Shown here piece by piece: positions 56 through 27,494 of a stretch of DNA of 33,964 nucleotides. Positions within the stretch are counted from its first letter, which is position 1; each line of letters begins with the position of its first letter. The position numbers and the translations under genes are program-made. Origin of the DNA: Salinibacter grassmerensis (lineage in GTDB: Bacteria > Bacteroidota > Rhodothermia > Rhodothermales > Salinibacteraceae). The stretch spans positions 1 through 33,964 of the forward strand of contig NZ_CAMTTF010000012.1 of the NCBI RefSeq assembly GCF_947077765.1. Reading direction: 5' to 3'. The notes under the pieces are model-generated. The model was not told where the DNA came from, searched no databases, and was given only the letters and a program-made list of their open reading frames with translations.

Positions 56-3000
56 TCAGCGCACGACGGTGATCTTCCGGGTCCGGGTCTGTCCACCGGC
101 CTCCAGCCGGCCGAAGTACACCCCACTGGAGAGTTGGCTGGCCCGGAGGTCTGCTCGGTGACGCCCGGCCTCCTTCCGGCCCTGCTCCAAGGTGGCGACC
201 CGGCGCCCGAGCACGTCGTAGACCTGGAGGCTGACTTCCCCGGCCTCTGGCAGGGCGTACTCGACGGTCGCTTGCCTCCGGACCGGGTTCGGGTAGGAGG
301 TCAGGCGCACCTCCTCCGGCAGAACCTTATCCGTCTCGCTCTCGACGTAGCCGTCGGTGCCGACCGCGAGCTTGAGCTGAGCAGTCTCGCCCTCCAGGTC
401 GATCTCGATAGCTTCCTTCTGCCGAAGATCGTAGGTCTTTCCGGCCGCAGGGTGGAGGAGAATCACCGACCGGCCCTCGGCCGCGCCGAGGTGCTCGGCG
501 CCAAGTGTGATCGGGCCGCCAGCCTGGCTCGACAGGCGCAAGGCAAAGGTCTCCCCACCGCCCTCCACCGGCCGGCGCTCGGCCATGAGGGTACGGGTGC
601 GCTTCGACTCAGCCTCGCTTGAAGCTTTCTCAGATGCCTTTATCCGCAGGCTCGTTTTCGCAAAGCGGCTTGGCGGGGCGATCAGGTCCTCCGGACCAAT
701 GCCAGGCCTCGCGCCCTCACGGAGCCCTACCTGAATGGTCGAGCCGGCTGCGCCTTCCGCGCGGACCGGCGTCGCCGTGAGGGCTAGCATTGCTGGCTCC
801 CCCTCCTTCTCCTTCGACATCTCGGATGAGGCCGCGCTTCCCGGCGCGCCGGGGTAGGGAATCACCAGCGAGTCCCGCCCGCTCTTGCCGTTGAAGAAGT
901 AGTAGGCCTCGCCGGTAGCCGCCGACGCGAACGTATCCGTCGAGTCGAACGTCCCGCCAAACGACCAGATCGGCTGCAGGTCCCCGCTGGTCGCATTTTC
1001 GACGGCGGCCCAGTCTACGTCTTCGCCGAAGGGATTAGACACAACGTTCCACCCTTCTCGCAGCCCGATCGCCGTAGCGGAGTCTCCCCGCAGGTTCACC
1101 GCCGAGATCGGCTCCTCGAAGGTCCACTCGCTGGTGGCGGTTAGCCAAAAACCGTTGCCCTTCCGGAAGTCGAACGTCTCCGACCTGTCGAACTCCACGA
1201 AGTAATCGCTCTCGGAGCCATCGTCGTAATAGGCCTGCCACTGGCTGCCGGCCTCTCCGCTCACGACGTCGGCCAAGGAGCGATCAGGTTGCCCCGGAAG
1301 GGCCACCAGCCGGTAGCTGGTCGAGTCGGTGGCCCCGCCAAACGTGCGGCTGGCGGAGGCAGTGACCTCTTGCGGGTAGAGGAAGACGCTGGCCACGCCG
1401 GAAAGACCGCTCTGATTGCCGGCCGTGTCCACAGCCGTGACCCCGTAGCGGTACGTGCGGTTTTCGGTGGCGGTGGTGTCGGTGAAGCTAGTGGCCGAGA
1501 CCGGGCCTTCCGTGAGCCCCGCGCCGCTTGTGTCCGGCGCCTGGCCTACGGAGCGGTACAGGCGGTAGCCGGCTAGGTCATCCGATGCCGATGCGCTCCA
1601 GGAGAGGAGGACGTGCTGGCCCTCCACATTGGCTGTCAGCCCGCTCGGCGCTGATGGCGTTGCCCGTTCAGTGAGACCTCCGTCATTGATCGTCCAGCCC
1701 TCTTCCTCGATGATCGACTGGCGTGCTGATTCCGCGCTGGAGGTATACTGGCTCTGGCCGGCGTCAAATGTCAGGTCGTCGGTTAGGTCCAGCTGGGCCC
1801 ATCTGGTCAAAAGTGCGTCGTAGTTCTCTGAAGACAGTTTTGCCCCGCCTGCCAGGAAACTCTCGAAGGAGTCGTCAAAGTCCTTAGAATCGTCTACGCT
1901 GGAGATATCCCACGAGCTGATATCCCTATCGAAGTCAGTGGCGCCCCTGAACATAGCAGCCATGTTAGTCACATTGGAGACATCCCATGAGCCGATGTGC
2001 CTATTGAAGCTTATGGCTCCATCGAACATTCCGCGCATGTTGGTCACCCTAGAGACGTCCCATCCGCTTACGTCTCCGTTGAAGCTTACGGCGCCGCCGA
2101 ACATGAACCTCATATCAGTCACGCTGGAGACGTCCCAAGAGCCGATGTCTCTGTCAAATCTTATGGCATCTTTGAACATGTACCTCATTTTGGTGACGTT
2201 GGAGACACTCCAAGAGCCAATGTCCCGGTCGAAGCTTTTGGCGTCCTCGAACATATTGCTCATTCCTCCCACGCTGGAGACATTCCACGAACTGATGTCC
2301 CCGTTGAAGCTATCGGCGTTGCTGAACATGGACCCCATGCTTCTTACGGCAGAGACGTCCCATTCACCGATGTCCTGATTGAAGCTGGTGGCGACAGCAA
2401 ACATGAAGGACATGGTAGTCACGTTGGAGACATCCCAGGAGCCGATGTCTCTGTTGAAGCTTTCAGCATTATTGAACATAGACCCCATGTCTCGTGCGGC
2501 GGAGACGTCCCACTTCTCGATGTCCCCATTGAAGCTGGTAGCTTCATTGAACATGAAGCCCATGTCCGTGACAGCGGAGACGTCCCACTCGCCGATGTCT
2601 TGATTGAAGCTGGTTGCGCCTCTAAACATGGCAGTCATGTTGTTCACGTTGGAGACATTCCATCTCTCGATGTCCCCATTAAAGCTGGCGGCGCCATCGA
2701 ACATAAAACTCATGTCAGTCACACCCGACAGGTTCGGCATGTCGACTGCGTTGTAGGTCATGTTTTCTGCTCCCGCGAAGGCAAATGCCATACTTTCCCA
2801 CCGTATGTCTCCCCACTGCTCGATTGTCTGGAGCCGCCGGGCGTTGGCTTGATCTCCACCGCCAAAGCGGCCCGCATTCAGGTAGATCCGCGGGAAAGTG
2901 CCGCTGATCTTGACCGTGTAGGTCCCGGCCTCTTTGTAAGAATGGTTCGGGTCTGGGTCCAGTCCAGAATAGGTCTCGGTCGTCCCATCGCCCCAATCGA

Positions 3001-3181
3001 CCTGGAAGTCGTAGCCGGAGATGTCTTCGGACTCGGTCGGAATCGTAATCGATAGGTCTGGGGAGGTCGTCTCCCAGGTAGTGATAAATGCGTCCTGGGC
3101 CTGAGTAGAAGACGGGCTGAATGCAACCCCAAGCAGAAGTGCGGTAGAAAGAGGAGCGCAGAGGCGCAAAAGACGCGTCAT
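56..3181 (-). CDS. BspA-like surface protein with DUF285 repeats and T9SS sorting domain
   Basis: Predicted secreted or cell-surface protein of 1041 residues. I chose the internal ATG at 3181 because it starts a clean signal peptide (MTRLLRLCAPLSTALLLGV, cut after TQA); the frame is open 46 codons further upstream. After the signal comes a PKD-like domain (VDWGDGTTETY, then the YTVKISG strand). Eleven 25-residue BspA/DUF285 repeats follow (1889-2713, pattern MxxMFxxAxSFNxDIxxWDVSxV). The usual repeat-closing segment comes next (LSSENYDALLTRWA to GWTINDGG), then an FN3 domain, a long linker, and a C-terminal type A sorting domain (YPNPVRRQATVEY, YDVLGRRVATL, SGVYFGRLEA). In Bacteroidota such C-termini direct export by the type IX system. 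The repeats are leucine-rich-like and often adhesive, so binding to cells or surfaces is an inference. No substrate can be named. Confidence 0.85.
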   Translation of the reverse strand: MTRLLRLCAPLSTALLLGVAFSPSSTQAQDAFITTWETTSPDLSITIPTESEDISGYDFQVDWGDGTTETYSGLDPDPNHSYKEAGTYTVKISGTFPRIYLNAGRFGGGDQANARRLQTIEQWGDIRWESMAFAFAGAENMTYNAVDMPNLSGVTDMSFMFDGAASFNGDIERWNVSNVNNMTAMFRGATSFNQDIGEWDVSAVTDMGFMFNEATSFNGDIEKWDVSAARDMGSMFNNAESFNRDIGSWDVSNVTTMSFMFAVATSFNQDIGEWDVSAVRSMGSMFSNADSFNGDISSWNVSSVGGMSNMFEDAKSFDRDIGSWSVSNVTKMRYMFKDAIRFDRDIGSWDVSSVTDMRFMFGGAVSFNGDVSGWDVSRVTNMRGMFDGAISFNRHIGSWDVSNVTNMAAMFRGATDFDRDISSWDISSVDDSKDFDDSFESFLAGGAKLSSENYDALLTRWAQLDLTDDLTFDAGQSQYTSSAESARQSIIEEEGWTINDGGLTERATPSAPSGLTANVEGQHVLLSWSASASDDLAGYRLYRSVGQAPDTSGAGLTEGPVSATSFTDTTATENRTYRYGVTAVDTAGNQSGLSGVASVFLYPQEVTASASRTFGGATDSTSYRLVALPGQPDRSLADVVSGEAGSQWQAYYDDGSESDYFVEFDRSETFDFRKGNGFWLTATSEWTFEEPISAVNLRGDSATAIGLREGWNVVSNPFGEDVDWAAVENATSGDLQPIWSFGGTFDSTDTFASAATGEAYYFFNGKSGRDSLVIPYPGAPGSAASSEMSKEKEGEPAMLALTATPVRAEGAAGSTIQVGLREGARPGIGPEDLIAPPSRFAKTSLRIKASEKASSEAESKRTRTLMAERRPVEGGGETFALRLSSQAGGPITLGAEHLGAAEGRSVILLHPAAGKTYDLRQKEAIEIDLEGETAQLKLAVGTDGYVESETDKVLPEEVRLTSYPNPVRRQATVEYALPEAGEVSLQVYDVLGRRVATLEQGRKEAGRHRADLRASQLSSGVYFGRLEAGGQTRTRKITVVR

Positions 3182-3631
3182 GTATGCTGAACCTGTGTAG
3201 TCAAAGCTACGCGAAGCAAATGGTGGCAGTAAGGCCACCCTGACCGACATTCGTGGAAGACCTGCACTCCACGTAGCTCTCAGTGCCGCTTTCTTCACGG
3301 CAGGTGATTGCCTCAGCACAGGCTGAGTTGAAGAGTTTTATTTGGGCCTTACATTATAGAAAGAATATGGGCGAACGAAAAGTGCTCCGGCATCCTCGAA
3401 GATAGACACCCGCCATCGGGCGCCCTCCCGGAGGGTTTTTATCCATTGGAGGGAACCCGAGACTCAACCACGGAAGTGGACTACCTCGGAGCACAGGCCA
3501 CGGAGTCAGAGCATGAGCCTTTGATCTTCCCTGTGCGCCCATCACAGGCAACCCTTTTCGCTTTTCAGTGCCTTTCCCAGGTCTCTGAAGCGGGCTCGTG
3601 GCCCGGTGAGGCTGGTCTTACGACCAAACCG
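3182..3631. other. Intergenic stretch without a convincing gene
   Basis: This separates two minus-strand genes. It should contain the promoter of the BspA-like gene, but I cannot point to one. The only structure seen is a small terminator-like hairpin at 3423-3440. Confidence 0.4.
3423..3440 (+). terminator. Possible Rho-independent terminator
   Basis: A CCCTC/GAGGG stem with a 3-base loop is followed at once by TTTTT, reading on the plus strand. No plus-strand gene precedes it, so it may block readthrough from the neighbouring replicon side or be fortuitous. Confidence 0.3.
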
Positions 3632-4700: not shown

Positions 4701-5627
4701 CTACCTCACGCGTTCCCAGAGGGTCTTCATCCGCTGGAGGGTGACCGACTGCTTCACGGACTTCGATCGGTTTGGGACCTCTTGCTCGGCCTGCTGGACG
4801 GCCCGCTTGTGGAGCTTGCCCAACCGCTCTTGGCTCAGGGCGTCAATTTGCTCCTGAGTCAGATCCGAGAGAAAGACATCCATTACGTCAATGTTGGGCA
4901 CCTCCGTCCGGTCCTCCATCTTTGGCTTCTCGGGCCGCTCCTCCCCGCCTTGATGGATGAAGAACTTAACCCGCTTCGCCGTCCGGCCTTCCCGCTCGAC
5001 ATCGTAGGTGAAGTGGATGTCGGTCTTCTCCTGGATCTCTTCCCGGGCATTCTCGATGACGTGGGCCTTCAGCTGTGAAAAGTACTCGTAGCTGTCGGTC
5101 ACCCCAAGAATGTCTCTAAGCTCCTCAACGGTCATGCGGAGAATGGAAATGTCCTCTCGCATCTTGAGTAGCTCGTAGATCCGCATCGAGTGCTTACTCC
5201 CGAGCGGAAGGAAGTACCCAGCCTCGTACATCGTAAACCGCTTCTTGAGCTGGAGAAGAAACGGCTCCATCGAGTCGTTGAACTTTGCCCTGATGTAAGC
5301 ATCATTCTCCTTGTAGCGGCACTCGTCCATGAGGCTGACGCCTCGGTATTCCCGCTTCCCGTTTTTGTCGTACTTCTTGATCTCCAGCTTTTTTTCGAGG
5401 AGGCTCTTGCAGATGTCCTCCGCGAGACCGTATAGGTTGTTGGAGAAGACCCCGGACTGGTCCATCAGATCCTTGATGTAGAGCCGCTGGAAACTGAACT
5501 CCTTGTCGTCTCGGTCCAGCTGTGAGATGAGCATCCCGACGATCCGGTGCTCAACCCGTGATAAGGGCATCTTGGCCTGGACCAGACGGTTGGCTTTGAC
5601 GATCATTTCCCCGGAGGCGCCCTCCAT
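4701..5627 (-). CDS. rep: Plasmid replication initiator, Rep_3 (RepB/RepE-type) family
   Basis: A 308-residue initiator expected to bind the iterons just upstream (5731-5886) and open the origin. The N-terminus reads MIVKANRLVQAKMPLSRVEHRIVG..., the typical Rep_3 opening (N-x-L-x-x-A, L-x-x-x-E-x-R). The first winged-helix domain continues through FSFQRLYIKDLMDQSG. It is followed by the signature region FTMYEAGYFLPLGSKHSMRIYELL, here broken into the conserved Y-x-x-x-L and S-x-x-x-R-I-Y-E-L-L parts. A second winged helix contains MTVEELRDILGVTDSY and YFSQLKAHVIENAREEI. The C-terminal tail (E-K-P-K-M... to KTLWERVR) is charged and variable. The length is normal for the family. Starts at 5627 or 5606 are both possible. 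Iterons upstream of the start suggest autoregulation. Confidence 0.92.
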   Translation of the reverse strand: MEGASGEMIVKANRLVQAKMPLSRVEHRIVGMLISQLDRDDKEFSFQRLYIKDLMDQSGVFSNNLYGLAEDICKSLLEKKLEIKKYDKNGKREYRGVSLMDECRYKENDAYIRAKFNDSMEPFLLQLKKRFTMYEAGYFLPLGSKHSMRIYELLKMREDISILRMTVEELRDILGVTDSYEYFSQLKAHVIENAREEIQEKTDIHFTYDVEREGRTAKRVKFFIHQGGEERPEKPKMEDRTEVPNIDVMDVFLSDLTQEQIDALSQERLGKLHKRAVQQAEQEVPNRSKSVKQSVTLQRMKTLWERVR

Positions 5628-5730
5628 GGCTGAACTGTTAGAGATTTGGTATCAGACGGTGGAAAAGGGAAGAAAACATACCCTTGAGCGTCCACAGATG
5701 CCACCAGACACTGGCCTGCGAGCGGTTGCT

Positions 5731-5886
5731 ACCAATGAGCTAACAGCTTCTACCAATGCGTTAACAGTTAGAGCGCGCTGCTACCAATGAGCTAACAGTT
5801 ATTTACCAACAAGCTAATACCTCTCTACCAACGAGCTAACAGTTCTTACCAACGAGCTAACAGTTCTTACCAATGCGCTAACAACT
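5731..5886. repeat. Iteron array, probable origin of replication
   Basis: Seven direct repeats of an 18-base unit close to ACCAANGNGCTAACAGTT start at 5731, 5752, 5783, 5805, 5827, 5848 and 5869. The spacing is 21-22 bases, about two helical turns, except for one 31-base step. Copy 4 (AACAAGCTAATAC) and copy 7 (ending ACAACT) are the most diverged. Placement just upstream of rep matches iteron plasmids, in which Rep binds the repeats for initiation and copy control. Confidence 0.9.
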
Positions 5887-6705
5887 CGTATCAATAAATA
5901 TATGGCGCTCAGTGTCTTACGCGACTCTATAATGTTTTAATGTGTCTAACGAAGTAATACTGTTAATGCGCGTGAAGAGCTTTACGAGGAAAAGCACACC
6001 TGAAAACAAAGGCCAAAGCCGAGGACACTGGCTCTCTATAACCGAAAGGATGGTCTCTCATCAGCGGTAGTTGAGCTCTCATCGCACGACGAGAAGTCTG
6101 AGCAACCCGCAGGAAAAGAGGAATCTACAGCAACCTCACGTCGACAAGAGGCAGTCGTCACCAGTTCTTACTCAACGGATGTAATCAGCCGTCTCACCAC
6201 ACTAATTCCGTTTTTGCAGACGAGACTTTCCGTAGAAAAAACACCATAGGAAAGCGTCACTGACCGCTGTTCTAATCATAGAGGCTCTAATGCCTATGTA
6301 CGCGGAAAAATTCAGGCAGCACCCGGTTGGAAGAAGCACTCCTGGCGCTATCAGCCGTGAAGTGGAGGTCTAGAAGCTTCACTCCTGCGTAGAGAAATGC
6401 CCATTTTCTTTGAGTCTAGGTTGAGCATAGACTCTGGCAAAAGCGGCCATCTAGGACTGCAATAATGGAAAATGAGAGTTCTCCTGATAGAACCATGGCC
6501 CACCGTCAGCATGTCAGGACCGACTTACATTCAGATCAGGAGGTAGCTAGTGGAAGTGCGACACAGGTATAAAAGACAGCCTTTTGAAACACGCATCGTC
6601 CGCTAAAGATAGAAGAATTTTCCATTACCGCCTGCAACTAGGCGTGGGAACCGAACGCAGCGGTGGACGGCAACAGAGGAGAATCTGACATACTGTGGAT
6701 ACGCG
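5887..6705. other. Noncoding region beside the iterons; AT-rich start
   Basis: No convincing reading frame on either strand. The first ~90 bases are AT-rich (for example ATCAATAAATATATGG and TCTATAATGTTTTAATG) and could be the DNA-unwinding element next to the iterons. The rest of the stretch shows no repeat or motif I can name. Confidence 0.4.
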
Positions 6706-6818
6706 AGGGCCCTGAGCAGGGACTCGTACCACACGTTGAGCGTCTCACTTTCTCTGTAGTGAGACTGCTTGACGCTTCCCACGTGGTGCGAAGTCCTGCT
6801 GAGGGCCCTTCTTTTTTT
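6706..6818 (+). ncRNA. Long hairpin followed by a U-tract: structured RNA or large terminator
   Basis: Bases 6706-6809 fold into one long imperfect hairpin. AGGGCCCT (6706-6713) pairs with 6802-6809 and AGCAGG (6715-6720) with CCTGCT (6795-6800). ACT-CG pairs across one bulge, and TACCAC (6727-6732) pairs with GTGGTG (6783-6788). GCG pairs with CGC, and the tip TCTCACT (6743-6749) pairs perfectly with AGTGAGA (6758-6764). TTTTTTT follows at 6812-6818, so on the plus strand it would act as an intrinsic terminator or the 3' end of a small RNA. A single-strand replication or priming site is an alternative. Confidence 0.55.
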
Positions 6819-6905
6819 GCCCTCAGCTGACCCTGAGCAGGGATTTAGAGACGTTCAGCACAGGCACTCTTCAATCGGACACATACTTAGAGCGAGGAGA
6901 GATAT

Positions 6906-6954: not shown

Positions 6955-6984
6955 AAAAAAAAGTTCGGCAGTTCCAGCTGCCGA
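6955..6984 (-). terminator. Rho-independent terminator, minus strand
   Basis: Stem TCGGCAG/CTGCCGA (6965-6971 with 6978-6984) with a 6-base loop, followed on the minus strand by a T-run (A-run 6955-6962). It implies a minus-strand transcript starting between here and the polymerase-like gene, or inside that gene. Confidence 0.7.
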
Positions 6985-7082: not shown

Positions 7083-9995
7083 ATGCACCACAATTCAACT
7101 CGCGACGACGATTGGGTTCCCCGAGACCGTGAAGCTCGAGTATCAGAGCTGGCATCACGACTCACGACGATCGTGAAGTCCTGTCCAGAGGGCGAGGACA
7201 AGAGAGCTTGGACGGAGCTCTGTCTTCTTCTTGCCGACCGCGTAGGCCCGGACGGGAGCGCGTACAAGAGCAACGCCGTGTCCGGCCGAGCAGAAGACGT
7301 AGCGTGGAAAGAGCCCAACTCTGTCCAAAGCGTTCTCACCTTCAGCGTGAATCCAGGGAAGGTGGATGGAGAGTGGAGACGAGGACAGACTGGAATCGAG
7401 GTCGGGACGGCTGTAACCGACGCGGCGAAGCTCTGCGACAACCTGGGCATCGACTATGGCACCGCGGCTAAGACGACGACCGACACGACGACTGAACAAG
7501 GATTGAGGATGAGGCTGGATGAGACCCGCCCAGGGGCCGGGACATCCGGAGGCCAGACCGCTGCGAGTCCTACGAGGCACAAACGTGGCGGGGCACTAGG
7601 GTATGGCAATAGCCCCGACGACGACGCGGAAGATTCAGGCTCAGCGTCTGCAGACGACGATTTAGGTGGGTCTGAGTCCATGTCAAAAAACCACTTTAGT
7701 GGCTCCCTTCGCTCTAAAGTGCCTGTGCCGAAACCGGTTCTGGACGCGTTCGATGAAGCCTTCGACGCGGCCGACGTGAGTGAGGAGTACCGGCCTGTTC
7801 TCCGCCACGTGTTCGCCCACGTGTACTACTGCCAGACGCGGATGCCGGATCGGTACGGCGACGGCGTGCCTCTGTCCCACGGGCTACTCAAGCAGGCCTG
7901 CCGCGAGGCCGAGGGAGTCGATGTGCCAACAAGGACGGAGGACATCTGGGAGTCCGTCGAGGGTGAGCTGCTGGCGGTGAGCGACTACATCTACCGCGAG
8001 GAAGGGGTTGGTCGGTCTCGAGAGTTCCGCCTCGTAGAGGACCTCATGCGGCGCCTGGACGGCGCTCTGGAAAACGGCTACGAGTACAAAACTCGGTACA
8101 ACCTGATCGACGGCAAGCGGCTTCGGAGCGGGTTTCAGACGGCGCTGACCTACGATGGGGAGCACTCTTGGGAGCAGCGCTCGACCTTCATCTACAAGAC
8201 GCTCAAGCGCCTGCGCGGCCAACGAGACGTTGTCAACAAGGCCGCCGCCGAAAACCACCTCGACCGCTTGGAGGCTGAGAAACAGGCCGCGCAGGAGCGC
8301 TACGACCGGCTGCAGGCGGAGCTCGATCAGCTGAAAGGCCAGATCCTGGAGGAGGGCAAAAGCCTCTCTGAATCGGAGCAGAAGCGGCTCAGCGACGCCC
8401 GCGAGACGGTCTGCAAGGCCGGGCGGGAGAAGGAGCGGGCAGAGTCGCGCTGGCGGCAGGACGCGAGGATCTGGGCGGACATCATCGCCCAGGGCCTGGA
8501 GGAGGCTGAGGACCAGCCTGAGGGCATCTGCGAGTACGAGACGGCCTACGAGGTGCAACCGGGGAGCGGGCGTTTGACCTGCATCTGCGGCCTTCAGAAC
8601 GCCTCTGAGGAGATGAAAGCCGCCGCCGCAAAAGGCACTGTTCACTACCGGAACGTCGACATCAAGTCCAGCCAGACGGAAGCGATCATCCAGGAGATGG
8701 AGATGGCGGTAAGCATGGGCGCGGACCTCAACTTGTCGGCGATCAAAGGCTACATCGAGGCCGGCGGCAAAGACGCGCTCGCCGACGAGCATGGAATCTA
8801 CCGCGACCGCTGGAAGCGGCCCGAACACTCGGTGAAGTTCGGCGCCGGCTTCAACCACGACACCTACGCGGCTGCACTGGGAGCGGCGAAGGGCAAGGTG
8901 CTCTCCGGCATAAAAGACGATGACGACGACCCTGATTTCAGCCAGCTCTACCAGTTCGAAAACGAGTCGGGAGAGGCGGCCTGGCACCGCGCTGTCTACA
9001 AAGAGCTGCCGACGATGGCGGCCGTTGCCCGCGACTGGGCTGACGACGACGAGATCGTATACGACGATCCGGAAGAGGTCTACTCCATCCTCCAGGACGC
9101 CTATGGCGAGATGGCAGAAGAGCTGGACGCCTGGAGAGATTGGCTCGTAGACGAATACTGGACAGAGGCGGGACAGCACGGCAGCCAGTTTGGCTACTTC
9201 GTGAGCAATCCCTGTTCCCTTCCGTTCAGCATTCACGACACACGTCTCGCAGACAGCAACGGCGAGGACGAAGAGATTAGCCGCTATAATCAGAAAGCGG
9301 GCTTCGCCACCAGCCGGTTGCAGGGCTCAGAGTCGGCGTTCATGCACGCCCTCGCCCTCATCCAGGACGACTTCGAGTACGAGTTTCTGCGGAACGAGCA
9401 TGATGGCGCGGTTGTGCTCGGAGAGATCCCGGAGGAGGCGGTGCAGATGGCCCGCCTCATTTCGGGTTTCCACCGCGCGGAACTGGAAGAGAAGCCCTTT
9501 GAAGGACACAACTCCAACAATACTGAGACCAACGACACTGAGACATGCGATACCACGACATCGAAGGACCCATCCGCGCAGAACCAGCTGGAGAAGCCTT
9601 CAAAGTCGCCTACGTCGCCAAACGGCGGGAAGTCCGGCGCTGGCTCTGCGAATGGGACGACGGGCCCAGGTGGAGCGAAGAGCGAGAGGACGCCATCTGG
9701 GTCCGCCCAAGTGTCGCCCGAGCAGTCCGCAACCACTTCGGGCACTACATGCGAGGGCACGGATCCATCCGACTCCTCGACCGGCCGAAGTCGGAAGGAA
9801 ACCTCAAAAACATCGTCGGGCGCGACTACTGGAGCCACATCACCTGAAGAGAAGGCTGTTCAGGCACGCCTGGAGAGGAAGCGCCGCGTCCGCGAAGGCG
9901 AGGTGCCTACAGGCATGCAGCAAGCCCTCGAGGAAGGGTTTTCGAAGGCAGAGTGGAAATGGGCCCAGCGAAACGCCGCAGCCTCTGCGGCCTGA
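7083..9995 (+). CDS. Large plasmid protein with family A-like polymerase motifs
   Basis: A 970-residue acidic protein. Residues 1-200 look weakly conserved, and a second good ATG lies at 7680. A charged coiled coil spans about 385-460. Four motifs follow in the order of a family A polymerase palm and fingers: YRNVDIKSSQTEAI (D526, like motif A D-x-S-Q-x-E), VKFGAGFN (F586-F590, like the F-G-x-x-Y of motif B), RLQGSESAFMHALALI (Q747, like the QGTAAD helix) and RNEHDGAVVLGEIP (H773-D774, like the VHDE motif C). The Q-to-HD spacing of 26 is close to the roughly 30 of Taq-type enzymes; the fingers appear to carry an insertion. Phage-type single-subunit RNA polymerases share part of this pattern and are the main alternative. 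No exonuclease or primase domain is obvious. A role in plasmid DNA synthesis is inference. The C-terminal 150 residues are S/T/G-rich where another gene overlaps (9545-9847). Confidence 0.55.
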   Translation: MHHNSTRDDDWVPRDREARVSELASRLTTIVKSCPEGEDKRAWTELCLLLADRVGPDGSAYKSNAVSGRAEDVAWKEPNSVQSVLTFSVNPGKVDGEWRRGQTGIEVGTAVTDAAKLCDNLGIDYGTAAKTTTDTTTEQGLRMRLDETRPGAGTSGGQTAASPTRHKRGGALGYGNSPDDDAEDSGSASADDDLGGSESMSKNHFSGSLRSKVPVPKPVLDAFDEAFDAADVSEEYRPVLRHVFAHVYYCQTRMPDRYGDGVPLSHGLLKQACREAEGVDVPTRTEDIWESVEGELLAVSDYIYREEGVGRSREFRLVEDLMRRLDGALENGYEYKTRYNLIDGKRLRSGFQTALTYDGEHSWEQRSTFIYKTLKRLRGQRDVVNKAAAENHLDRLEAEKQAAQERYDRLQAELDQLKGQILEEGKSLSESEQKRLSDARETVCKAGREKERAESRWRQDARIWADIIAQGLEEAEDQPEGICEYETAYEVQPGSGRLTCICGLQNASEEMKAAAAKGTVHYRNVDIKSSQTEAIIQEMEMAVSMGADLNLSAIKGYIEAGGKDALADEHGIYRDRWKRPEHSVKFGAGFNHDTYAAALGAAKGKVLSGIKDDDDDPDFSQLYQFENESGEAAWHRAVYKELPTMAAVARDWADDDEIVYDDPEEVYSILQDAYGEMAEELDAWRDWLVDEYWTEAGQHGSQFGYFVSNPCSLPFSIHDTRLADSNGEDEEISRYNQKAGFATSRLQGSESAFMHALALIQDDFEYEFLRNEHDGAVVLGEIPEEAVQMARLISGFHRAELEEKPFEGHNSNNTETNDTETCDTTTSKDPSAQNQLEKPSKSPTSPNGGKSGAGSANGTTGPGGAKSERTPSGSAQVSPEQSATTSGTTCEGTDPSDSSTGRSRKETSKTSSGATTGATSPEEKAVQARLERKRRVREGEVPTGMQQALEEGFSKAEWKWAQRNAAASAA
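9545..9847 (+). CDS. Overprinted small gene inside the 3' end of the polymerase-like gene
   Basis: A 100-residue protein in the +2 frame relative to the large gene. Its composition looks like a folded protein: MRYHDIEGPIRAEPAGEAFK, W-rich centre (RRWLCEWDDGPRWSEERED), then ARAVRNHFGHYMRGHGSI and NLKNIVGRDYWSHIT. The codons are mostly C- or G-ending (ATC, GTC, GAC, CGC), as in neighbouring genes. The large frame over the same bases gives a disordered S/T/G/P-rich tail with poorer codon usage. This is what an overlapping real gene would look like, though a frameshift remnant is possible. There is no clear ribosome binding site, but few genes here have one. Function unknown. Confidence 0.5.
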   Translation: MRYHDIEGPIRAEPAGEAFKVAYVAKRREVRRWLCEWDDGPRWSEEREDAIWVRPSVARAVRNHFGHYMRGHGSIRLLDRPKSEGNLKNIVGRDYWSHIT

Positions 9996-10015: not shown

Positions 10016-10095
10016 GTGTGAAGACTGCTATACGGTCAAAACGCAAGTGTATATCGTCTGTGTAGGTGAGTGGTCAAGCAAGCAAACTCACTCAC
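10016..10095 (+). promoter_or_regulatory. Repeated leader block, copy A (operator plus hairpin), upstream of ardA
   Basis: This shares GTGTGAAGACTG, a TATACGGTC half-site, a TATATCG half-site and TGGTCAAGCAAG with the block at 10755-10837. The hairpin stem GTGAGTG (10066-10072) pairs perfectly with CACTCAC (10089-10095), exposing a loop that starts GTCAAGCAAG. The ardA ATG follows 14 bases later. Probably a promoter/operator and a 5' leader element. Confidence 0.65.
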
Positions 10096-10109
10096 ACAGA
10101 CACAACACA

Positions 10110-10631
10110 ATGGACACGATCAAGCTCTACATCGCAGACCTCCACGCCTACAACCGCGGCCAGCTCCAGGGAGAATGGATATCGGTTGGCCCTCACGACA
10201 ACGAGGGCGACATCCTCGACGCCATCGACGCGCTCCTGGCCGAGTGGAGCGTTGAGGAGTACGCCATCCACGACTACGACGGCCTTCCGGAGTCGCTCTA
10301 CAGTGAGCACATGGACCTGGGCACGGTCGCCGCCTACGCGGAGCTGCTCAACGCCTTCAACAACGATGTCGTGGAGGCATACTTTCAGCTGCCGTACTGG
10401 AAGGAGTGCTCGCCCGCTTGCTGAGAGCACGACATCAATGACCGGCTGCGCGACGTGTACACCTCCGTCGAGGAATGGGCGCACGAGCACGCCGAGATGT
10501 CCGGCTGGACGGAGGACCTGCCCCAGCAATACTTCGACGCTGAAGCCTTCGCCCACGACGCTGAGCTGAATGGCGACATCGACGTGATGGAGATTTCCTT
10601 CGGTGTCGTGGTGATCTTCAACGCCCACTAG
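10110..10631 (+). pseudogene. ardA: ArdA-type antirestriction gene interrupted by an in-frame TGA
   Basis: ArdA proteins are acidic DNA mimics that inhibit type I restriction enzymes. The frame opens MDTIKLYIADLHAYNRGQLQ then EWISVG, which matches the ArdA start (aspartate-rich, YNxGxLxGxW). EEYAIHDYDGLP is the family's E-x-A-I-H-D-Y-x motif. TGA at 10422-10424 stops translation after 104 residues. The same frame then continues for 68 more codons with sequence that looks like the ArdA C-terminus (DVYTSVEEWAHEHAEMSGW, LPQQYFDAEAFAHD, VMEISFGVVVIFNAH) to TAG at 10629-10631. The rebuilt length of about 173 matches family members of about 165. A nonsense mutation, a sequencing error or readthrough could explain it. 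It is preceded by leader block A and followed by a terminator. Confidence 0.8.
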
Positions 10632-13454: not shown

Positions 13455-14072
13455 ATGAAATGCATCGGCGTCCTTTCTCAGAAGGGCGGCTCTGGCAAGA
13501 CGGTAATATCCACAAACATTGCTCGGGCCCTTCAGCTGCGCGGCAATGAGGTGATCCTGGTCGACACGGACAAGCAGGGCTCCGCTCGTGACTGGGCTGC
13601 AACGGGCGACATCGACCCGCCGCACACGGTCGGCGTGGACCGACCTCGCGTTCACCAGGAACTGCCCAAGGTGCGAGGCTACGACTACGCCGTTGTTGAT
13701 GGCGCCGGCAAGGTGGAGAGAATGTCGGCGTCGGTAATCAAGGCGTGTGACCTCATTCTGATTCCCGTCCAACCAGCCGGTGTAGACCTGTGGGCACTGG
13801 GCGAGCTGGTCGACCTAATCGAAGCTCGCCAAGAGGCATCAGAAGGCCTTCAGGCGGCGTTCGTTGTCAGTCGGGCGGTAGTGGGCGCCAACCTTTCCTC
13901 GGATGCTGAAGAGGCGCTGAGCGGCCTGTCGTTCCCTGTCATCGGACGCACGAACCAGCGCGTGGCCTACGCTAAGGCGGTCACAAGAGGCGCTAGCGTC
14001 CTGGACCTGACCGACAAGAAGGCGAAAGACGAAATCAACAGTCTCACGGATGAAGTACTGCAGCTGCTATGA
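13455..14072 (+). CDS. parA: ParA-type partition ATPase
   Basis: A 205-residue Walker-type ATPase of the short (type Ib) ParA class, without an N-terminal HTH. MKCIGVLSQKGGSGKT carries the deviant Walker A motif (K-G-G-S-G-K-T, residues 10-16). ILVDTDKQGSARDW is motif A', YDYAVVDGAGKV is the Walker B region, and LILIPVQPAGVDLWAL is the following conserved strand. It moves plasmid copies along the nucleoid together with a small DNA-binding partner. It overlaps the next gene by four bases (ATGA), so translation is probably coupled. Palindromes at 13403-13440 suggest autoregulation. The length fits the family (about 200-220). Confidence 0.93.
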   Translation: MKCIGVLSQKGGSGKTVISTNIARALQLRGNEVILVDTDKQGSARDWAATGDIDPPHTVGVDRPRVHQELPKVRGYDYAVVDGAGKVERMSASVIKACDLILIPVQPAGVDLWALGELVDLIEARQEASEGLQAAFVVSRAVVGANLSSDAEEALSGLSFPVIGRTNQRVAYAKAVTRGASVLDLTDKKAKDEINSLTDEVLQLL

Positions 14073-15862: not shown

Positions 15863-15876
15863 TAGTACTGTTGAGG

Positions 15877-18015
15877 ATGAATGAACCGGTAGCACTTATC
15901 GACTTATTTTCAGGGTGTGGAGGGTTCACCCTTGGTTTCACTCAGGTGCACACAGACGAAGGCAACCCTGTTTTCGAACCAGTATGGTCGAATGACTTCG
16001 ACGAGGATTCAGTTGCCAGCTACAACTCCAACTTTGGAGATCATTGTGTTCATGGTAACATCGTCGACCTTCTGGAGGAAGGAGTCGAGTTTCCGGACGC
16101 TGACATTGTAATCGGCGGACCGCCTTGCCAGGGCTACAGCTTGCTCAACAAGGACAAAGAAGGAGACCCGAGGAAGCAACTATGGCGGCCGTACATGGAA
16201 GTGGTCGACCGGGTGGGAGCTGAGGTCTTCGTCATGGAGAATGTCCAGCAGCTTCTAGGATCTGCCGAGCATGATGACATCAAGGCTCGAGCACGAGAGT
16301 TGGGATTCGAGGTTGAATCGGCCGACTTGGTAGCAGCCAACTACGGGGTGCCTCAGACACGGACCCGTGCCTTCATCATCGGGAGTAAGCTCGGAGATCC
16401 GGCCGAGCACTTTCCGCCGGAGCGGACTCACTTCAACCCGAAAGAGAGGCAAATGACGATCGATGACGGAGCTGAGATGCAGCCCTGGAATACGGTAAGG
16501 GATGCCATCGGGGATCTCCCACCGCCCCTTGGAACCGAGGTAAGAGACGAGCCCGGTCCTTTTGATTTGCATTTCAGCCGTAGTCCCACCGCAAAGAGTA
16601 TTCGCAGGTATATAACCGTACAGGAAGAGGGAGCTAATCGCTACGACCTTCAAGAGCGGGCTCCTGAAATAACTCCTGATTGCTGGAAGCGAAAGACATC
16701 CGGTGGTACTGACATTTTCGGTCGGCTGTGGTGGGATCGGCCAGCATTTACGATCCGAACGGAATTCTTCAAGCCGGAGAAGGGAAGATCTCTTCATCCC
16801 AGCCAGCACCGGGCAATTACCCACCGCGAAGCTGCTCGATTTCAGTCGTTTCCCGATTGGTTTGATTTTCAGGGCAGCAAAACTTCAATTGCATCTCAGA
16901 TTGGGAATGCGGTGCCACCTCGTCTCGGATTTCACGTAGCTACAAGTGCAGCGAGGCTCTTCACGGACGAGGATCTCACCCGTAGAGAAGACCCGATCGG
17001 TGTCCATTCCGGTACCAATGGTTCTATCAAATCCAACGGTGAGATGTCAAAAGAAGATATACAGAAGCTTTGCAACCGGCTTGTAGAACGAGCTGAGGAA
17101 GTTGATAGCGACCTGAGTGGAGATGAGCTGAGAGAGAGTACTCAGGCACTTGCTGACGCGAAGGAAGCCATTAAGGAGATAGGGAAATCGCTCTTCCCTG
17201 ATGCAACGTCCGGCAGGAAACGAATTCTCAAGTACCTCCTCAGCTTTCCTCGAACTCCCATTCCTGGGAAAGAGCTCGGAGCCGTTGCAGGCATCAAGGA
17301 ATACGGACGGCGTATCCGTGAACTGCGGAAAGAGCATGGTTGGCCGGTCTACAGCGGGATAACAATCCGCGAGATGATATATGAGGGTGATCTGTTCGAG
17401 CCGGATGTGCCCGATGGAGCTAAGGAAATGGCTCGTGACGACTACATTCTCCTTGACACCGAGCGGGACGAGGAGGCCGCCGAGCGGTGGAAGACCGCCA
17501 ACAAGATTCGAAACATGGATGGTTCTCTCCAAGATCGCCTGCTGAAATTCTTCCGGGAGAACGTAGGAGAGCCGGTAACTGGTGAAGAGTTGCGGTATGT
17601 GGCCAATGGTGCCCAGTCGTGGCCGCGGCGGGTTCGTGAGCTGAGAACAGAGGAAGGCTGGCCGGTTCGGACTCGTAACACCGGTAGACCCGACCTGGAG
17701 CAGGGAGAATATATTTTGGAAGAAGACAGGCAAGATGAACCCCACGATCGAGACGTCCAGGATATGGTTAGGTCGAAGGTGCTGGACCGGGATGGTCACG
17801 AATGCAGAAAGTGCGGATGGGATTACGTCAGAGGAGAGAAAAACCCTCATGGCCCGAGGACTAAGCTTGAGGTGCACCACACCCGGCCGCACGTTGAGGG
17901 TGGAGAGAATAACGCGGACAACCTCGTCACCCTCTGCAACGTGTGCCACGATGAAGTCCACCGGACCAACCGTTTAGAGGATCCTGACGAGCTGCAGGAC
18001 TGGTTGACAGTTTGA
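15877..18015 (+). CDS. Cytosine-5 DNA methyltransferase fused to winged-helix-like repeats and an HNH nuclease
   Basis: A 712-residue fusion. Residues 1 to about 360 are a C5 methyltransferase: [16 protein letters not shown] (motif I), [13 protein letters not shown] (motif IV, catalytic C84), FVMENVQ (VI), [15 protein letters not shown] (VIII) and [14 protein letters not shown] (X). After a linker come two similar segments of about 50 residues: [20 protein letters not shown] with [17 protein letters not shown], and [20 protein letters not shown] with [17 protein letters not shown]. They look like winged helices. The C-terminus is an HNH nuclease: [29 protein letters not shown] and [13 protein letters not shown] (two CxxC pairs and the H-H...N...H core). 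One chain could therefore both modify and cut. The ATG at 15877 gives motif I at the normal distance; TTG at 15871 is also possible. It overlaps the nuclease gene downstream by four bases. Confidence 0.9.
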
Positions 18016-23801: not shown

Positions 23802-24563
23802 TCATGCTGGTCGGACTAAGATCATTCCGAAACCAAACGACTTCTGTTTTCCAATTCCCGACGAGACCAGGCTCGTCCACTTGTCTTGGTCTGTGATCTC
23901 GATTTGGGCACTGATTTCAGCGACCGGAACCGTGAGGCGCTGCAGCGCGGAGCTTCCCGACGTGTGGTCACGCCTGCGTACCTGCTTCAAGTCGAAAGAC
24001 TGAAGACTGGCTAGCAGGTTGTCTTCTCCGGACTGGACGCGGGCTCCGCCCCGGATGTCGAACTGCCGGGCCAGCCAGGGCACGTACACCTCTTCCCTAC
24101 CGATGCCGGTGTCCTCCCGCTGGTACACCTCTGACAAGTACGCGTCCATCACCTGCCCTTCCCTCCAGCTGACGCGCTCTCCGTCGGCGTTGGTTCCGGT
24201 GCCGGAAGACGCTTTCTGCACCTGTGGGCAGGCGCGGGTGTGCATTTCCAGAGCGGTTCCCTCGGAAATCTCAGGCATCGGTTTCGAGCGGATGTCCACA
24301 AGCGCGTCGAACGCAAGCGGAGACGCATGCAGCTGAGCGGCCGCGCGCAGGTCTTCAGCGGGCTTGCCCGTGTACCCGAACACCGTCAGCATATCGCCGT
24401 CGTCCTGCCGGAGCCAGAAAGGCTTCGGGGCGTCGTCTCCGAAGACCTCAGTCAGGCCAACGTGCAGGCGGTACCCCGTGTCGGCCGTTGCGATGGGAAG
24501 GCGGTGATCACGAATCAGTTTAGCAAGGGTGTGAGCGTCAAGTCGAACGTCTGTTAGATACAT
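23802..24563 (-). CDS. cas6e: Cas6e (Cse3/CasE) CRISPR RNA endoribonuclease
   Basis: A 253-residue protein from the ATG at 24563 (MYLTDVRLDAHTLAKLIRDH), the usual Cas6e opening. It cuts pre-crRNA at the base of the repeat hairpin and stays bound as part of Cascade. YRLHVGLTEVFG contains the histidine in the active-site region. KPFWLRQDD follows, and the C-terminus holds the glycine-rich loop GIGKQKSFGFGMILV typical of Cas6 proteins. It is longer than the E. coli enzyme (199). It lies between two arrays, and its start codon is two bases from a degenerate repeat of array 2, so a repeat hairpin forms part of its 5' leader. The open frame further upstream (to 24644) is only the repeat region. Confidence 0.92.
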   Translation of the reverse strand: MYLTDVRLDAHTLAKLIRDHRLPIATADTGYRLHVGLTEVFGDDAPKPFWLRQDDGDMLTVFGYTGKPAEDLRAAAQLHASPLAFDALVDIRSKPMPEISEGTALEMHTRACPQVQKASSGTGTNADGERVSWREGQVMDAYLSEVYQREDTGIGREEVYVPWLARQFDIRGGARVQSGEDNLLASLQSFDLKQVRRRDHTSGSSALQRLTVPVAEISAQIEITDQDKWTSLVSSGIGKQKSFGFGMILVRPA

Positions 24564-24565
24564 GA

Positions 24566-25012
24566 AGGTTTGTTTCCGCGTGTGCGGAAGAGAGAGTAGG
24601 TCGTGAACGAAAACGAAGAGCTCACCCCCGCGTGTGCGGGACATACTTCATGTCCCCGAGGGTCTGCACCTTGACGGTGGGTCTATCCCTGCGTATGCAA
24701 GGCATACAGAAGCTGGAGAGCATCTCGCGTGTGTTCGTTAGGTCTATCCCGGCGTGTGCGGGGCATGCTTCGTCGGCACGTAGGTACAGTCGTTAACGTT
24801 GGGTCTATCCCCGCGTGTGCGGGGCATATCGCAGCGCGAACGTCGGGCGCGGAATTTCGGTGGGTCTATCCCTGCGTGTGCGGGGCATATGAGACGAGGA
24901 GAATCCGCCTATAGAACGCGTCGGGTTTATCCCCACGTACGTGGGGCATACTACTTCTTCTCGTGCTCTTTTTTAGCAAACCAGGGTCTGTCCCCGCGTA
25001 TGCGGGGCATAC
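24566..25012 (-). CRISPR. CRISPR array 2, type I-E, 8 repeats, inside the cas operon
   Basis: Repeats start at 24566 (degenerate), 24618, 24679, 24740, 24801, 24862, 24923 and 24984. Spacers are 32 bases except the leftmost, which is only 23. CCTGCTACA (25013-25021) abuts the right-hand repeat as in array 1, so it reads on the minus strand. Only 14 bases separate it from the cas5e stop, and its last repeat reaches the cas6e start. Confidence 0.95.
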
Positions 25013-25026
25013 CCTGCTACAGGTTT

Positions 25027-25749
25027 TTACCCTTCCTGATAGCCTGCCGCAGAAAGCCGGAGCTGGGCGACTCGCCGCTGGCCCGAATGGATCTGCTGGG
25101 ACCAGTCTCTCTTGTCGGTCACCGTAAACGACCGCGCTGTCGGCGCCAGTTCGGCTGGGCACCAGACGCTCGGCCGGTCGACGACCTCGCCGGAAAACGT
25201 CTCCGGGACGCGGAGGGCGCCCAGAACGTCCTCTGCCTCAACGGTTCCACGCCAGATCCGCGCGGACGGGATGCAGCACTTCCGGCCCAGGAAAAGCGGC
25301 CGCTCGGGCCGGATCATAGCCTTCCGGATGGCCTCCTCGCCTAAGAGCGTTGAGCGGACCGCAACGGTGTATGAAGCGTCCATCAGGTAGTCCTTGTACG
25401 TCTGCTCCGTCTCGGTCTTGTTGTCTCCGTCCCGGAACTCCGGCTCGCCTCTGGTCGTCCAGCCGACCGTTTTCGTTTTTGATGAGGCATACATTTTCGG
25501 CTGGCCCAGGTCCGTCGTTTGGTACTCTTGCAGCACCTCCCCGGGCTGGTCGGCCCGGGCCGCGTACGTGAGGCTCGCCTGCAGCTTCTGGTGGCGCTCC
25601 GCTTCGGACTGGTCGTAGCCCAGGCCGTTTGCGATGAGCCCACAAATCATGGATTGCGGCGGGAACCGCCGGGTGGGAATCTTGGCTCCGGTTGTCGGAG
25701 CCCCAAACCCCATCAGCGGCGCCTTGAATCGAAGGATTGAGACCGTCAT
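25027..25749 (-). CDS. cas5e: Cas5e (CasD) Cascade subunit
   Basis: A 240-residue protein from the ATG at 25749 (MTVSILRFKAPLMGFGAPTT). It binds the 5' handle of the crRNA and joins Cse1 to the Cas7 backbone. Features in order are the Cas5 start (L-R-F-x-A-P-L-x-x-F-G), TGAKIPTRRFPPQSMICGLI with the conserved P-T-x-S-x-I/M-x-G-L-x-x-x-x-G, DYLMDASYTVAV, and RPLFLGRKCCIPSARIW (R-P-x-x-x-G-R-K-x-C-x-P). The length is normal. It starts 16 bases after the cas7 stop and is followed by array 2 rather than directly by cas6e. Confidence 0.93.
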   Translation of the reverse strand: MTVSILRFKAPLMGFGAPTTGAKIPTRRFPPQSMICGLIANGLGYDQSEAERHQKLQASLTYAARADQPGEVLQEYQTTDLGQPKMYASSKTKTVGWTTRGEPEFRDGDNKTETEQTYKDYLMDASYTVAVRSTLLGEEAIRKAMIRPERPLFLGRKCCIPSARIWRGTVEAEDVLGALRVPETFSGEVVDRPSVWCPAELAPTARSFTVTDKRDWSQQIHSGQRRVAQLRLSAAGYQEG

Positions 25750-25765
25750 AGAATTGAGGCCGTCA

Positions 25766-27016
25766 CTAGGCCAGGTGAGTTGTGGTCCAGTTGGCAAGAT
25801 CAGGGATGGAGCCTACGTCTCGGGCCACGCCTTCGGCACTGAGGTCGACGCGGCTCGCGTAGGCGCGGTCTGCGGTGGCGTCCTCCCCAAGCAGGCGGTC
25901 GCAGCCTCGGACCTCGTCGACCAGTGCTTGCGAGGCGGCATGCCCGACGTCTTTCGCCTCGATGGGCGGCACGAAGGCCTCGCTCATCTGAGCGAGCTGG
26001 CGCCTATCGCCGGCCTCGACCAGCGCGAGGGTCGGAAGGGCGTACGGAGCCGTAGGGCCTCTCTTCGCGCCGATGGAGGCGTAGCAGATGGTCTTGCAAA
26101 ACGCCTCGAGCAGCGCCTTCGTGAGCCCCAGGTCCTGCTCTTTCCACTCCGAGCGGCCGCATCCTTCGAGGTTTGCGGTCAAAAGCGGGACGTCGACCGC
26201 GACGTAGAGGTAGTACAGCCCGGACGTCAGCTGCTTGGTATCGTTGTGAGACGCTCCACTTCCTCCGGCAAGCTGGTCGACGGCCGTGAAGAAGTCGTCC
26301 TCCCGCTGCTGCTTTCCGACGGTGTGGGCGTGGGCCACGTGCACCGCGGCGTTGACCCGGGCCAGCACGTCGGAGGTGACCATTCGGCCGTGCATGGCGC
26401 CGTCTAGACCGATGTCTTTGCCCATGGCCTTGAGGTTGTTTTTGACGTCTCCCTCGAGGTCTTTGAGCTTCAAGTCTTCCACGTCCTCTCGGCTTTCGTT
26501 TTCCTGGAGGACCTGCTCGGCCACGGTGGCCAGGTAACTGACCTCCTGTGGACCTACAACCTTCGGGGCATTTGTGCAGAGGACAGAGAGGGGCTCATCG
26601 TTGCTTCCAAGCGCCGAGCCGCTGACTTCCTGCGGGTCCTCTTCCATTTGCTCGAGCACGGCACTGAAGCTCTCGTCGTCGCTGTCCGGCAGGTCCCCGA
26701 GGCCATCGTCGTCGAAGACAGCGTCCTTGAGCTTCGTTGCAATGACCACGGAGAGCTCCGGGTCGTAGTCCTCCGCGAGCTCGGCGGCGAGGTGCCAGTA
26801 AAATGTCTCCCGGGAGCGGATGGACATCGGGCCTAAGTTTTGGATTGCGTCCTGGCCGTCGTAGTTGCGCCAGTGGTACTTTTGGGCTTGCGAGGACACC
26901 CGGGTGCGGGTCGTCCCTCCAAGCTGAAGCTTCTTCGGAAACCCGCGGTCGTCCCGGTTGAGAAGCGTGCCGGGATACGACGTGAGGAGGTGATACTCGA
27001 TGAAAGGTTTACTCAT
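25766..27016 (-). CDS. cas7e: Cas7e (Cse4/CasC) Cascade backbone subunit
   Basis: A 416-residue protein from the ATG at 27016 (MSKPFIEYHLLTSYPGTLLN). Six copies normally coat the crRNA. The start fits the family (F-I-E-x-H-L-L-x-S-Y-P-x-x-x-L-N-R-D-D). TRVSSQAQKYHWRNY is the conserved S-S-Q-x-x-K-x-x-W/R segment. GLDGAMHGRMVTSD and VNAAVHVAHAHTVGK are also family hallmarks. It is about 50 residues longer than the E. coli protein, with an acidic insert in the first half (DDGLGDLPDSDDE). It overlaps cse2 by 8 bases. Confidence 0.94.
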   Translation of the reverse strand: MSKPFIEYHLLTSYPGTLLNRDDRGFPKKLQLGGTTRTRVSSQAQKYHWRNYDGQDAIQNLGPMSIRSRETFYWHLAAELAEDYDPELSVVIATKLKDAVFDDDGLGDLPDSDDESFSAVLEQMEEDPQEVSGSALGSNDEPLSVLCTNAPKVVGPQEVSYLATVAEQVLQENESREDVEDLKLKDLEGDVKNNLKAMGKDIGLDGAMHGRMVTSDVLARVNAAVHVAHAHTVGKQQREDDFFTAVDQLAGGSGASHNDTKQLTSGLYYLYVAVDVPLLTANLEGCGRSEWKEQDLGLTKALLEAFCKTICYASIGAKRGPTAPYALPTLALVEAGDRRQLAQMSEAFVPPIEAKDVGHAASQALVDEVRGCDRLLGEDATADRAYASRVDLSAEGVARDVGSIPDLANWTTTHLA

Positions 27017-27479: not shown

Positions 27480-27494
27480 AGCGATCAGCTTAGG

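Follow-up and report, generated by a model that had tools for sequence, protein, structure and literature searches.

The window analysed here is a whole contig of Salinibacter grassmerensis (G000:C12, 33,964 bp) that carries genes for a Rep_3 initiator and a ParA partition ATPase, together with iterons. A 970-amino-acid open reading frame (ORF) in this window encodes a protein with a predicted family A DNA polymerase fold, confident in the palm and less so in the fingers, and the protein is very probably kin to the TV-Pol polymerases. We tentatively propose that, at the origin of its Rep_3/iteron/ParA element, this TV-Pol-type enzyme serves in priming or in early synthesis. An initial annotation, made from the sequence alone, had suggested a divergent family A-like polymerase carried by a plasmid, and our analysis supports that reading.

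Predicted fold and active site

The ORF starts at ATG, and in 200 mononucleotide shuffles of the segment the longest open frame did not exceed 322 codons. Antisense frames of up to 450 amino acids are also open across it, and the GC fraction at the three codon positions of the plus frame is 0.636, 0.473 and 0.748. The family A motifs named in the initial annotation (DIKSSQTE from residue 526, FGAGFN from 586, QGSES from 747 and HD, here followed by Gly, from 773) are all present as cited, and the coiled coil that it reported ahead of them corresponds to two long helices of our model, i.e., the thumb. Its motif B was in the right place, F586-G587 forming the "YG" with which the O-helix closes, but it began after the catalytic K578 of R574xxxK578, which was not listed. 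R574xxxK578 and a TGR-like hairpin are family A features absent from its list. A placing by eye of F586 at the position of DNA polymerase I (Pol I) F762, and of H582 at that of the catalytic Lys, was overturned by the alignments and by hhalign, in which K578 is the Lys.

To compare the family with DNA polymerase I, we used a PolA profile of eight sequences (host PolA, T7 gp5 and phage PolAs). The two profiles aligned with a score of 44.2 (hhalign, E 1.4e-4, probability 53%), whereas 20 column-shuffled controls scored at most 19.7. The catalytic motifs fall opposite each other: D526 pairs with the motif A Asp, R574xxxK578 with RxxxK, F586-G587 with YG, Q747-G748 with QG and H773-D774 with HD. 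Ahead of them SGRL..LQN pairs with TGRL..LQN, so that the hairpin S495-G496-R497 ... L504-Q505-N506 lies opposite TGRLSS..LQN of Pol I.

The window protein has no Pfam match to DNA_pol_A at E<=1 and does not reach the curated cut-off. In Pfam, PHROGs and NCBIfam it draws weak matches (none better than E 0.041), most of them on the coiled coil. No nuclease domain was matched in these three collections; a MutS2 model (E 0.58) touches the coiled coil only. Searching the sequences of the Protein Data Bank (PDB) with phmmer gave nothing relevant, the best match being a glyoxalase-type protein (0.0084, residues 276-346). Some PHROG models of unknown function match relatives weakly (best 1.6e-7), and none matches the window protein. 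The DNA_pol_A model has a single match in the window's own genome, to the host PolA encoded on a different contig.

An AlphaFold2 model of residues 201-840, computed from a 15-row alignment, has a mean predicted local distance difference test score (pLDDT) of 74.4 and a predicted template modelling score (pTM) of 0.65. The blocks around motifs A and C average 91 and the O-helix lies at 66-80; the modelled part includes no recognisable exonuclease. With VIA-align, the model matched Pol theta (9au8, Z 19.3, 329 residues, 4.4 A), T7 DNA polymerase (1tk8, 17.7) and the Klenow fragment (1kfs, 17.1); the tool reports that chance matches typically reach a best Z of 7-8, or 14 for mostly helical models. 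Every one of the 50 rows listed is a DNA polymerase of family A. Foldseek found 126 PDB chains at E<=1e-3, with Pol I enzymes leading. Strands 482-486, 488-491 and 498-502 of the model surround the hairpin Arg R497. Residues 201-346, modelled separately (pLDDT 85.4, pTM 0.82), appear winged-helix-like from the order of secondary-structure elements in this confident model.

The active site is conserved across an alignment of 22 rows that reaches down to 15% identity with the window protein; two pairs of rows are >75% identical, so the rows are not all independent. Q505, D526, K578, G748, E750, H773, D774 and G775 are invariant. The initial annotation had named the loss of D526 and D774 in homologues as evidence against a polymerase, and both are kept in every row. 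Its other refuting condition, a predicted fold lacking a right-hand palm, likewise did not hold, since the model shows a family A fold whose palm is confident. The Q747 column holds Gln in 17 rows. Arg occupies the R497 column in 20 rows, and in the remaining two rows, from Vibrio phages, an Arg is displaced by two columns downstream. The window protein has the full R574xxxK578, and Arg is found at the first position in 4 of the 22; at the column of D564, where the alignment is uncertain, 4 rows have Asp. Two residues with which Pol I rejects ribonucleotides are altered. Position 531, equivalent to E710, is Gln in 20 rows and His in 2, and position 582, equivalent to F762, is Tyr in 9 rows and His, Leu, Met, Ile or Cys in 13, with His in the window protein.

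Several relatives were left out of the 22 rows: the frame-shifted Synechocystis B12 sequence, L026/L043 (in-frame stop), L046 (YDG, degenerate motif B), L024/L044/L045 (protein identical to L033, or contigs identical to L025 and L029), L042 (same phage as L051, judged by record length), the Calothrix NIES-4105 gene (which crosses the record start), pH8NP1, gp030, SAHL-type proteins of genomes G004, G010 and others, and the further Alexandravirus-type loci L047, L049 and L052-L059, among which L047 shares 99% identity with the SNUABM_32 query.

Probable relationship to the TV-Pol group

A TV-Pol has been described in an element integrated in Microcystis phage Ma-LMM01 (Iyer, Abhiman, Aravind 2008; PMC2579912; statements on published work refer throughout to the accessible parts of the cited sources). 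The same paper predicts on context grounds that TV-Pols are primase-polymerases, and gives as their traits a two-helix coiled-coil thumb, a beta-hairpin with an absolutely conserved Arg, fingers with RxxxK and a conserved Asp, no fused nuclease domain and, in a subset, a D5-like helicase fused or nearby. Our family profile matched gp030 of Ma-LMM01 with E 3.6e-14 and a probability of 98% (E 7.4e-18 in the whole record). Because gp030 adjoins two transposase genes, it is probably the TV-Pol meant by these authors. It likewise has His at the E710 position and HDG in motif C. In a tree, gp030 falls inside the family beside the relative from the Polaromonas plasmid pW9NP1, although the branches of the two are long and this grouping may be spurious.

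A second type of protein, with DLKSAHL in motif A and LHDG in motif C, occurs in the genus genomes G004 and G010. Its N-terminal module is of the kind seen in the window protein, which the G004 protein also resembles in its tail, and its profile aligned with that of the family with a probability of 87% (E 4.3e-6). More PolA-like ORFs were seen in genus genomes (L100, L101, L103, L099 and L013:723-2996), with motifs such as DMSSAH/DMSSAQ..QHDG, DLSSAQ..YDG and DLTKAH..SDG. Contig C4 of the window's own genome has a 548-amino-acid ORF with HDG, in which a pattern search found no motif A.

Distribution of the family

Relatives in genome and viral contigs were recovered by alignment-based scans; scans with a single protein as query had no match in either set. 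They come from Salinibacteraceae contigs, Polaromonas and cyanobacterial plasmids, cyanobacterial genomes, IMG/VR contigs and 43 phage records. Some kind of whole-protein match was found in 5 of the 13 genomes of the genus. The polymerase core is matched in three of them (the window's own, G003 at 64%, and G006), while in G004 and G010 the N-terminal module alone matches the window protein. The closest relative is that of G003, a genome placed in Salinibacteraceae, Rhodothermota. Of 395 genomes taken from the phylum, five have a match to the core profile, and one of these is the window's own.

Relatives on plasmids are those of Calothrix NIES-4105 plasmid6, a Synechocystis B12 plasmid (frame-shifted) and Polaromonas pW9NP1. 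Other cyanobacterial relatives come from Calothrix brevissima, Nostoc JL34 and Calothrix FI2-JRJ7, and the family includes smaller members of about 500 amino acids, for instance from cyanobacteria. A tblastn search with the IMG/VR relative L031 matched 43 of 50,697 phage records (Erwinia 32, Dickeya 8, Vibrio 2, Yersinia 1), among which the window protein itself as query found no match. In all 40 of these records that were listed, the family protein is annotated "hypothetical protein". Scans of the viral contigs with the pW9NP1 relative or the Vibrio phage pair as query gave no match.

Some relatives are unusual. A member on a 195-kb IMG/VR contig (L046:5806-7596) has YDG for HDG and a degraded motif B, and is perhaps inactive. 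On a 190-kb contig (L043/L026) one TGA interrupts the family gene and the remaining frame is open, which may reflect decay, error or recoding. Plasmid pH8NP1 has a protein (L085:6095-7600) that resembles Ma-LMM01 gp030 (tblastn 2e-4) and is annotated as a Clp N-terminal-domain protein; its Clp_N score of 19.9 is just under the Pfam cut-off of 20.7, so the annotated name is doubtful. The start of the L072 ORF resembles an exonuclease-bearing PolA.

The N-terminal module is fused to the polymerase in the window, G003 and G004; in G006 and G010 it has an ORF of its own, which lies upstream of the core. By blastp, the module of the window matches those of G004 (40% over 137 residues), G010 (35% over 137) and G003 (4e-8). 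The G006 module ORF matches G003 at 3e-27 but the window at just 0.006. The C-terminal tail of the window protein matches the G004 tail (8e-12).

Genomic context

The features of the window are collected in Table 1. The Rep_3 initiator and iterons reported in the initial annotation were both recovered, as was a structured leader, namely a strongly folded stretch upstream of the polymerase gene. The contig ends show no exact terminal overlap of >=16 bp.

Table 1. Positions of the polymerase gene, its predicted domains and motifs, and neighbouring features in the window
Feature	Position	Strand	Evidence
TV-Pol-like family A polymerase gene, 970 amino acids	7083..9995	+	ORF, fold, profile comparison
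N-terminal module, residues ~20-150	7140..7532	+	blastp of modules
Helix-helix-strand-helix-strand-strand domain, winged-helix-like, residues 201-346	7683..8120	+	model
Thumb, two long helices, residues 386-422 and 430-469	8238..8489	+	secondary structure of model
S495-G496-R497, predicted hairpin Arg contacting template (TGR motif)	8565..8573	+	aligned with TGRLSS of PolA
Motif A, D526-I-K-S-S-Q531; D526 as first catalytic Asp, Q531 at Pol I E710 position	8658..8675	+	
Fingers O-helix, R574xxxK578xxxH582xxxF586G587	8802..8843	+	hhalign with PolA O-helix
QG helix, Q747-G748-S749-E750	9321..9332	+	22-row alignment
Motif C, H773-D774-G775; D774 as second catalytic Asp, Gly replacing Glu of HDE	9399..9407	+	
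C-terminal tail module, residues 903-962	9789..9968	+	40% identity to stretch elsewhere in own genome (G000:C6)
Rep_3 initiator	4701..5627	-	Pfam Rep3_N 4.6e-31, Rep3_C 3.9e-15
Seven TACCAA-type iterons, start-to-start 21-31 bp	5730..5881	+	
Rod-like hairpin of ~105 nt, then T-run; candidate non-coding RNA or terminator	6705..6819	+	-69.6 kcal/mol, z -7.87
Palindrome CGGCAG-TTCCAG-CTGCCG upstream of polymerase gene	6966..6983	.	
ArdA antirestriction protein, directly downstream of polymerase	10047-10424	+	
ParA partition ATPase	13455..14072	+	CbiA 5.5e-15, PHROG 164 ParA-like 1.8e-35

None of 200 shuffles folds as well as the hairpin, and it has no Rfam match; lying between the iterons and the polymerase gene, it may be a plasmid regulatory RNA. 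The palindrome precedes the gene of the N-terminal module in three elements, recurring in G004 (L012:1158) and in G010 (L013, about 10251). In G010 both arms are altered together (CGGCTG..CAGCCG) and the loop is unchanged. None was seen in the stretches inspected for G003 and G006.

Replication initiators also accompany relatives of the polymerase on other elements. In Polaromonas pW9NP1, the relative ends 10 bp before repA (RepA_C 4.5e-32), with ParA behind. This plasmid has been classed as RepA_C (PMC6015842), and the three mentions of "DNA polymerase" found in that source concern other matters. In G006 and G010, RPA initiators lie about 2 kb from the relative.

Five of the 43 phage records, all jumbo phages, were examined for other replication genes. 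Each has a canonical PolA and a Toprim_2 protein over the cut-off, and none has a DNAG_N match. For these five, the idea that phages with the family lack any other primase is thereby rejected. A review of jumbo phages (PMC7824862) describes primase-less group 1 phages that use PolB, a different set-up that is no evidence for the window family.

Elsewhere in the window, one ORF fuses a C5 cytosine methyltransferase and an HNH domain (15871-18015, +), and a large DUF285-repeat protein with a Por secretion tail is encoded at 56-3319 (-). Pfam recognised the CRISPR-Cas genes CRISPR_assoc (Cas6e-like), CT1975 (Cas7e-like) and Cas3 at 23802-31534 (-); this system on a plasmid-like contig looks like type I-E.

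Proposed function and alternatives

Iteron plasmids are usually held to borrow the host polymerase. The gene in the window would code for an enzyme in which an accessory module at the N terminus is followed by a winged-helix-like domain, then by a thumb of two helices and a palm/fingers core. Its two-metal active site (D526, D774) appears intact, with the template Arg R497 and the fingers Lys K578 and no recognisable 3'-5' exonuclease, and it is very probably catalytically active. The polymerase gene would form part of the replication gene set of the Rep_3/iteron element, and it probably serves the replication of that element. Rep_3 would open the iteron origin and the DNA-binding and accessory domains would bring the polymerase there. 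Until the host replisome took over, the polymerase would lay down or extend the first strand, through priming or early synthesis.

Our preference for priming or early synthesis follows from the kinship to TV-Pol, the closest group described, since its biochemically studied member CcPol primes with its partner MP. That the enzyme primes, rather than elongating alone, is put forward with some reserve. Because E710 is changed to Gln or His in all 22 rows and the F762 position is His in the window protein, RNA or mixed primers are possible, although we consider a relaxed choice of sugar (use of ribonucleotides) doubtful. The wider idea that a plasmid and phage branch without the ribonucleotide-excluding residues and third carboxylate of Pol I makes RNA or RNA-DNA primers at origins is an unlikely one. 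If true, it would add a type of primase built on the Pol I fold, apart from DnaG, the AEP primases and the dNTP-using CcPol-MP. The family gives an exact prediction on sugar selectivity at the level of residues, and CcPol is a TV-Pol-type enzyme with published biochemistry. A family A enzyme kept with Rep and ParA on unrelated plasmids, and present as an extra in jumbo phages, would suggest that some replicons come with a starter enzyme of their own.

A number of observations weigh against this proposal. In the model, the fingers insert (model residues 389-460) is mostly under 50 in confidence, and the Foldseek TM-scores normalised to the query are just 0.31-0.37, with a root-mean-square deviation of at least 9.4 A in the 50 rows listed. 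The domain 201-346 has no significant structural match, the best being under noise (Foldseek E 0.26, VIA Z 5.7). With a core match in 3 of 13 genomes, the polymerase appears to be an accessory gene in the genus. A scan of some of the window's ORFs recognised no SF3/D5 helicase. Because host PolA is present, the plasmid need not carry a polymerase for elongation. Similarly, because PolA and Toprim_2 occur in 5/5 jumbo phages, the family is not the sole candidate for polymerase or primase there; in these five phages it is a third, accessory enzyme.

An alternative is a primer-dependent accessory DNA polymerase that does not prime and stands in for host Pol I when gaps are filled, in repair or in the early synthesis of the leading strand. 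The best structural matches, Pol theta foremost, are primer-dependent DNA polymerases, CcPol without MP extends primers only, and the other PolA and the Toprim protein of the five jumbo phages leave an accessory role. We nevertheless consider it somewhat unlikely, since host PolA and the phages' own PolA are already there, and since a motif C without Glu and a motif A without the steric-gate Glu, in 22/22 rows, would be odd in a plain DNA polymerase. The same residues (Gln or His at the E710 position throughout, neither Phe nor Tyr at the F762 position in 13/22, HDG for HDE) could point to a family A DNA-dependent RNA polymerase or RNA primase that evolved separately from T7 RNA polymerase. 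The gene that follows directly in two Vibrio phages carries the annotation ribonuclease HI, and T7 and mitochondrial RNA polymerases stand in the Foldseek list near 1e-5. However, the 50 VIA-align rows listed are all DNA polymerases and no promoter-recognition domain was identified. The family profile has no match to T7 RNA polymerase either, though PolA fails likewise in the same set-up. We regard such an enzyme as quite improbable.

The polymerase could also be a passenger: a TV-Pol mobile element, composed of an integrase or resolvase and the polymerase, would reside in the plasmid and copy its own DNA instead of the plasmid. A tyrosine recombinase gene adjoins the polymerase operon in G010, and in G004 a neighbouring ORF of similar length is unrecognised by Pfam. 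Recombinase genes are also found in pW9NP1, pH8NP1 and the Calothrix plasmid, and transposases lie beside gp030. In the window, though, the only integrase found among the ORFs scanned (32852-33442) is 23 kb off, or ~7.6 kb if the contig is circular, and in pW9NP1 the gene lies 10 bp from repA; a passenger is rather unlikely. Finally, the deviations in motifs A and C, and the YDG of the distant relative L046, might suggest a catalytically dead protein that keeps the fold as a DNA-binding initiator. This is very improbable given that both Asp and the Lys are kept in 22/22 rows, and the hairpin Arg in all if two rows are shifted by two columns.

Comparison with known systems

The window family shares its fold and motif order with DNA polymerase I and Pfam DNA_pol_A. 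It differs in having HDG rather than HDE and Gln or His rather than Glu (E710) in motif A, in 22/22 rows, and the window protein has neither a DNA_pol_A match at E<=1 nor a recognised Exo domain.

Another group of extra polymerases is formed by divPolA1 and divPolA2, divergent second family A polymerases of phages that also have a regular polymerase (Yutin 2024, PMC11348598). The window family resembles them in being an extra divergent enzyme beside a regular one in phages. Its profile, however, has no match to the divPolA2 AUR84708 (21.3, a single-sequence comparison) or to the divPolA1 candidate of immuto (22.5), and the latter, unlike the window family, is recognised by PF00476.

CcPol of SCCmec, listed as a TV-Pol, primes de novo with deoxynucleoside triphosphates (dNTPs) only when its partner MP is present (Bebel 2020, PMC7581432), and without MP it merely extends primers (PMC7581432; PMC10061031). 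Mutants of its active-site Asp residues are inactive, and it keeps E710 and F762, the two Pol I residues that discriminate against ribonucleotides (PMC7581432). The window protein resembles CcPol-MP and the PolA-SSB primases (Bebel 2020, PMC7581432; Rice 2023, PMC10061031) as a family A polymerase of a mobile element with a proposed role in replication initiation. Compared with the published description of CcPol, it has Q531 and H582 in place of the two residues. No MP partner was identified for it, though no modelling of neighbouring ORFs was aimed at one.

With the TV-Pols, the family shares a core without a recognisable exonuclease, a two-helix thumb, a hairpin Arg, two Asp and a fingers Lys, as well as its occurrence on mobile elements and an N-terminal module fused or encoded next door (cf. 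PMC2579912). It differs in the plasmid initiators (Rep_3, RPA or RepA_C) found here instead of a D5 helicase, of which there is none among the window ORFs scanned, and in the Gln or His at E710 with HDG in 22/22 rows, for both of which gp030 is the one TV-Pol candidate compared. A 2026 survey of bacterial DNA polymerases (PMC12926913) distinguishes PolA1, PolA2, PolA3 and PolA1-like; its main text never uses the word "plasmid". In the accessible literature on TV-Pol, CcPol and divPolA we found no description of a Rep-linked plasmid branch or of the E710-to-Q/H change; supplements and subscription papers may hold more. We class the window protein and its relatives as a variant of the TV-Pol-type family A polymerases.

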